Source: Gemmatimonadaceae bacterium
GTDB taxonomy: Bacteria; Gemmatimonadota; Gemmatimonadetes; Gemmatimonadales; Gemmatimonadaceae
NCBI GenBank assembly: GCA_036273715.1
Contig: DASUHB010000078.1
Location: 1-42,681, forward strand
DNA length: 42,681 bases
Direction of reading: 5' to 3'
Of this stretch, positions 39,469 to 39,569 are shown one piece after another (position 1 is the first letter of the stretch; every line of letters begins with the position of its first letter). Below the pieces are notes generated by a model. It ran no database searches, was not told the DNA's origin, and was given only the letters and a program-made list of their open reading frames with translations. The translations under genes were made by a program, and so were the position numbers.

Positions 39469-39507
39469 GGGCCCTTAGCTCAGTTGGTTAGAGCAGCGGA
39501 CTCATAA
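39469..39507 (+). tRNA. 5' half of a tRNA-Met (CAT) gene, interrupted after the anticodon loop
   Basis: The sequence gives a normal acceptor strand (GGGCCCT), TA, a D-arm (GCTC-AGTTGGTTAGA-GAGC), the anticodon-stem strand GCGGA and the loop CTCATAA, anticodon CAT. After position 39507 the expected complementary strand (TCCGC or similar), T-arm and acceptor are absent; the sequence turns to AAACCGAGAAGG. No 3' half was found downstream in the window. This is the pattern left when an element integrates at the anticodon loop and the restored tRNA lies at the far end. Confidence 0.85.
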
Positions 39508-39512
39508 AACCG

Positions 39513-39569
39513 AGAAGGGTGCTCAGTTAGGCTCATGGGCACCCTTCTTCCTTTCTACGTGAGCCTAAC
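39513..39569. repeat. two interlocking perfect inverted repeats at the island edge
   Basis: AGAAGGGTGC (39513-39522) pairs with GCACCCTTCT (39539-39548), and GTTAGGCTCA (39526-39535) pairs with TGAGCCTAAC (39560-39569). The second pair starts inside the loop of the first, so RNA could form either hairpin or an H-type pseudoknot. A pyrimidine-rich tract follows the first hairpin, so it could also be a terminator. Role unknown. Confidence 0.6.

Follow-up and report, generated by a model that had tools for sequence, protein, structure and literature searches.

The Islander catalogue records a 3′ fragment in 3,760 of 3,919 tRNA islands and a 5′ fragment in 159 (about 4%) (PMC4383910). The mode in which the element supplies the 5′ half of the gene is known but uncommon, and a literature search for bacterial 5′-half cases returned mainly the Islander statistics, together with the archaeal pTN3 case. 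With the pTN3-like integrases of Thermococcales, attP lies within the integrase gene, and integration splits that gene (PMC5495485, PMC8371274). A further related system is the tRNA-dependent lysogeny of actinobacteriophages, in which a whole phage tRNA gene replaces that of the target, neither junction rebuilding it; tRNA-Ile2-CAT is among the targets (PMC10865867).

The locus described here lies in a window of 42,681 nucleotides, which is the whole of contig C78 from a Gemmatimonadaceae genome (labelled G000; 4.34 Mb in 81 contigs). It is best explained by a phage-like element with a tyrosine integrase that integrated in the anticodon loop of a tRNA-Ile(CAU) gene and supplied the 5′ half of that gene along with upstream DNA, a reading to which we assign a probability of about 0.9. 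The arrangement shares with the 5′-fragment islands of Islander an anticodon-loop crossover and a restored tRNA whose displaced fragment lies at the opposite end; that fragment is the 5′ half, which precedes the restored gene and reads in the same direction. Islander, however, requires an integrase in the island, and the window copy has none (PMC4383910). As in the actinobacteriophages, a phage element occupies an essential tRNA gene whose function comes from phage DNA, but here the right junction rebuilds the gene (PMC10865867). Unlike the pTN3-like case, the integrase gene of a bacterial relative (G152) is intact, its end lying upstream of the restored tRNA. The locus offers a clean example, from a little-studied phylum, of the rarer mode, in which the element takes over the promoter and front half of a tRNA gene.

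The 39 bases at 39469–39507 (+ strand) form a tRNA 5′ half, GGGCCCTTAGCTCAGTTGGTTAGAGCAGCGGACTCATAA, consisting of the 5′ acceptor strand, the D arm, the anticodon stem GCGGA and the loop CTCATAA, which holds a CAT anticodon and ends the half. Between the anticodon stem and the next five bases, AACCG, there is just a single pair. Neither ARAGORN nor Rfam detects a tRNA gene in the window, and GC content falls at the junction from about 0.70 to about 0.58–0.62 in the insert. A search of the genome's own 81 contigs returned one near-identical copy (43/44 bases, E 2e-14) on contig C17, where it is part of a complete tRNA gene near the contig end; the identity stops exactly at CTCATAA. This match excludes a chance likeness of the 5′ half to a tRNA. 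The original prediction, made from the letters of the window, is thus borne out in its description of a 5′ half cut right after the anticodon loop, followed by bases unable to pair with the stem, by no 3′ half and by a drop in GC.

Its label of tRNA-Met, in contrast, needs revision. ARAGORN also calls the C17 gene Met, by its CAT anticodon. Searched against 5,426 E. coli genomes, however, it finds its best matches in genes annotated as tRNA-Ile (81% identity), and a separate CAT tRNA of the elongator-Met type lies on contig C61 of the same genome, so that the gene is best read, from its sequence, as tRNA-Ile(CAU), with a CAT anticodon on a body of the Ile2 rather than the Met type. tRNA-Ile(CAU) decodes AUA and is normally essential. 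One relative (G077) has two complete copies of the gene, at C58:452-525 and C68:252-325, each a few hundred bases from its contig start.

The far end of the element is found on C17. The final 141 bases of the window (42541–42681, + strand) are identical to the end of this contig and match no other contig of the assembly. Contig names in a relative's assembly carry the label k141, and in a k=141 graph neighbouring contigs should overlap by 141 bases. Joined through this contig overlap, rather than within a single contig or by reads, the order is a GSDH-like host gene (− strand), native upstream sequence, the 5′ half, a 3,376-base insert, a complete tRNA gene and an MFS-transporter gene; the last 0.2 kb or so of the element and the restored tRNA occupy C17:28251-28526. 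A complete tRNA gene thus stands at the end of the foreign DNA, with the displaced 5′ fragment upstream of it in the same orientation. It had been foreseen that the attachment site would lie in the anticodon loop and that the far end would hold both the 3′ half and a restored tRNA; the downstream search named beforehand as the check found them 3.4 kb away, on the overlapping contig.

Two further explanations of the interrupted gene bear on this join. If the window contig were chimeric at the tRNA, its left flank would be joined to unrelated DNA, an artefact that a draft of 81 contigs and a contig ending 3.2 kb after the tRNA might invite. A separate assembly, that of G004, nevertheless shows the same left junction, 5′ half and hairpin included, with 93% identity over 2 kb, and the predicted far end exists with an overlap of exactly 141 bases, as the graph expects; a chimera is exceedingly unlikely, and we reject it on these two observations. 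The alternative named in the original prediction, an intron interrupting the tRNA with its 3′ half further downstream, has in its favour that the break falls in the anticodon loop, the usual place of tRNA introns. The insert, however, holds protein genes and a phage fragment rather than a 3′ half, none follows in the window, and the gene at the far end is complete and uninterrupted, which leaves an intron with virtually no chance of being correct.

The two copies of the 5′ half differ by one base in the D loop, and their upstream sequences share only 5 identical bases. The segment directly upstream of the window half (39451–39468, + strand), promoter-like and native to the original tRNA gene, is shared with an intact tRNA in another family genome (G003; 93% over the 57 bases 39451–39507, tRNA half included), and the sequence upstream of the restored copy is not. 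The window half is therefore the old host half, stranded at the left junction, whereas the element brought in the half now found in the restored gene. On the host side, the left flank encodes a glucose/sorbosone dehydrogenase-like protein of 467 aa (37842–39245, − strand; Pfam GSDH PF07995), of which G004 has a 96% identical orthologue beside the same tRNA half. The order of tRNA and MFS gene on the right recurs in a different genus (G108), which identifies the right flank as host DNA and the junction as native. Synteny of the GSDH gene with the tRNA was not found in other genera, nor was an empty site with both flanks and no insert found among relatives.

Arm-type sites of integrases look like direct repeats on both sides of the core. 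Inside the left end are four TTGAACA direct repeats (39595–39641, + strand), with two partners at the right end (C17:28356-28374). Across the 4.34 Mb of the genome, pairs of TTGAACAG with this spacing number four, none of them outside the two insert ends, and a reversed control pattern has zero matches; in 148 family genomes there are just three other single pairs. From their position and uniqueness, the TTGAACA repeats are putative arm-type sites of the integrase. The confinement of the pairs to the two insert ends shows that both ends, sharing these sites, belong to one element.

The part of the element inside the window, delimited by the GC step and the C17 join, spans 39508–42681. It encodes a DUF6941-domain protein of 258 aa (39804–40580, + strand; Pfam PF22091, E 2.7e-7), an orphan protein of 381 aa (40823–41968, − strand), a small ORF of 82 aa without a family match that overlaps the start of the 381-aa gene (41965–42213, − strand), and the C-terminal part of a truncated phage head or cement protein (42268–42540, − strand; PHROG 673 and Pfam PF09956). 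The 381-aa orphan has no match in Pfam, PHROGs, NCBIfam or PADLOC and, among 395 phylum genomes, is found in this one only. Queries with this protein or the left junction did not find the element in viral contigs. The unfamiliar genes announced beyond the boundary are accordingly real. The structural, replication and lysis modules of an intact prophage are represented by the truncated cement-protein gene only, and no integrase gene was found in the reconstructed insert; for want of a tyrosine integrase the window copy is filed as the remnant of an island rather than as an active one.

The stop of the cement gene, the end of its similarity to contig C56 and the start of the 141-base overlap fall at the same base, 42540/42541. 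A deletion at this point is the likely reason for the missing integrase, which was probably lost around 42540/42541, and the truncated phage gene together with the missing integrase marks the window copy as probably a deleted remnant that is likely immobile unless helped in trans. The coincidence of the assembly break with the cement truncation also suggests a second context for the right end, such as a longer form carried by part of the population. The C56 similarity belongs to a second, related integrated remnant in the same genome (C56:1-4100, beside a 2-oxoglutarate dehydrogenase gene), whose cement-protein gene is 85% identical in DNA to window positions 42270–42540 and which also has a HipA-like kinase, a hairpin and a short similarity to the left end of the window element. 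A third cement-gene relative lies about 10 kb from an integrase adjoining tRNA-Gln(TTG) (C13:84936-95475), in what is probably a prophage at that tRNA. Elsewhere in the genome, an integrase-domain gene (C68:3382-4748) sits directly beside a cluster of seven tRNA genes (Thr, Leu, Asp, Glu, Glu, Trp, His).

The same features could be those of a live satellite that never had an integrase of its own and is mobilised by that of another element. Arm repeats and full junctions without an integrase would suit such a satellite, as would the related remnant on C56 and the seven Phage_integrase matches that the genome holds outside the insert. The genome has no other TTGAACAG arm pairs, however; no resident helper with these arms was found and none of its integrase loci can be linked to the element, so a resident helper was set aside as a candidate. 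The cement truncation, like the sharp junction at 42540/42541, moreover has the look of a deletion. We consider a satellite unlikely and a deleted remnant the better description.

The reading of an element integrated in the anticodon loop draws further support from relatives. Scanning 179 family genomes for the 5′ half and the 3′ half, each set against full-length matches, yielded stranded 5′ halves with the same cut in four (G000, G004, G133 and G152) and stranded 3′ halves in two (G003 and G156); one partial copy (G056) is in neither count. G000 and G004 share the same element end, so the four genomes represent at least three lineages. The 5′ mode looks over-represented at this gene, in numbers too small for a firm claim. 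Of eleven phage records matching the 5′ half, the three examined (MT836181, MT121960, MT121964) hold ordinary complete tRNA genes.

In G152 the right end of the element encodes a tyrosine integrase of 372 aa (Pfam PF00589, 1.5e-17; PHROG 1) that stops shortly before the restored tRNA; both ends of the element carry the 22-base repeat GTTCGGGCACAGAACGGGCACA, and deeper in the element there is a gene for a DnaB-type helicase. The original prediction had also placed an integrase gene next to the far-end tRNA, which fails for the window copy and holds for this relative. The reverse-type elements of G003 and G156 use the same tRNA and the same CTCATAA loop in the same bacterial family, but they carry the 3′ half and strand the host's 3′ fragment. 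That of G156 is complete (C220:3382-6006, 2.6 kb) and lies with its own integrase between an intact tRNA and a 3′ half; the decayed integrase of G003 is about 60% identical to it over the conserved part. The G156 element also contains a small gene, possibly for an excisionase, along with genes read by eye only as a HigB-like toxin and its HTH partner. No significant similarity was detected between the integrases of G156 and G152, nor between those of the reverse type and that of G152 in general, which indicates that this one loop serves unrelated integrases, whose elements restore opposite halves of the gene.

These comparisons, namely the same 5′-half cut in G004, G133 and G152, the G152 integrase directly upstream of the restored tRNA, the reverse-type insertions at the same loop and the phage cement fragment in the insert, add to the grounds for this reading. 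They also bear on the notion that the 5′ half is a duplicate which arose without any integrase, by chance or by recombination such as template switching or segmental duplication. Short duplicates of tRNA DNA do arise, and the insert lacks an integrase; even so, a duplicate is very unlikely given a cut exactly at the edge of the anticodon loop in four genomes, arm-like repeats that link both ends, and an integrase still in place in G152.

Integration by the tyrosine integrase of the phage-like element would have proceeded by crossover within the 7-bp CTCATAA of the anticodon loop (39501–39507, + strand), the inferred core, at which the 5′ fragments end and the 3′ fragment of G003 starts. The attP of the element would have held a copy of the tRNA 5′ half and its upstream region. 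Recombination would then leave the host's own 5′ half and promoter stranded at the left junction, in the window. At the right junction the element's 5′ half would join the host's 3′ half to give a complete tRNA gene. Expression of this restored gene would have to start in element DNA, and its promoter may lie close to the TTGAACAG arm repeats; a consensus scan found no promoter for it.

Just 3′ of the stranded half, and terminator-like by position, is a strong hairpin (39512–39549, + strand) with a 14-bp stem (−23.6 kcal/mol, z −2.9), which would probably stop transcription from the abandoned host promoter; a strict terminator scan gave no terminator there. In each of G000, G004, G133 and G152 a strong hairpin (z −2.6 to −5.7) lies downstream of the stranded half, in the stretch from 4 to about 60 bases past its end. 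Those of G000 and G004 are homologous, and those of G133 and G152 differ in sequence. Such unlike sequences point to possible selection for the hairpin, whose simplest function would be to halt transcription coming from the abandoned tRNA promoter.

A more speculative and rather doubtful extension is that the anticodon loop of tRNA-Ile(CAU) serves in Gemmatimonadota as a shared docking site for unrelated integrases acting on opposite gene halves, and that the 5′ type carries a purpose-built module, in which the terminator hairpin silences the abandoned half and the arm region doubles as promoter of the restored tRNA. If this is true, the host would depend on element DNA to read AUA codons. Given the recurrent hairpin, and with unrelated integrases settling on one loop in both modes, it becomes possible to test what drives expression of the restored tRNA and what determines the half that a given element carries. 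In G152, about ten head-to-tail copies of CTTGAAGCACA are found directly 3′ of the restored tRNA (C113; L113, about 2735–2850).
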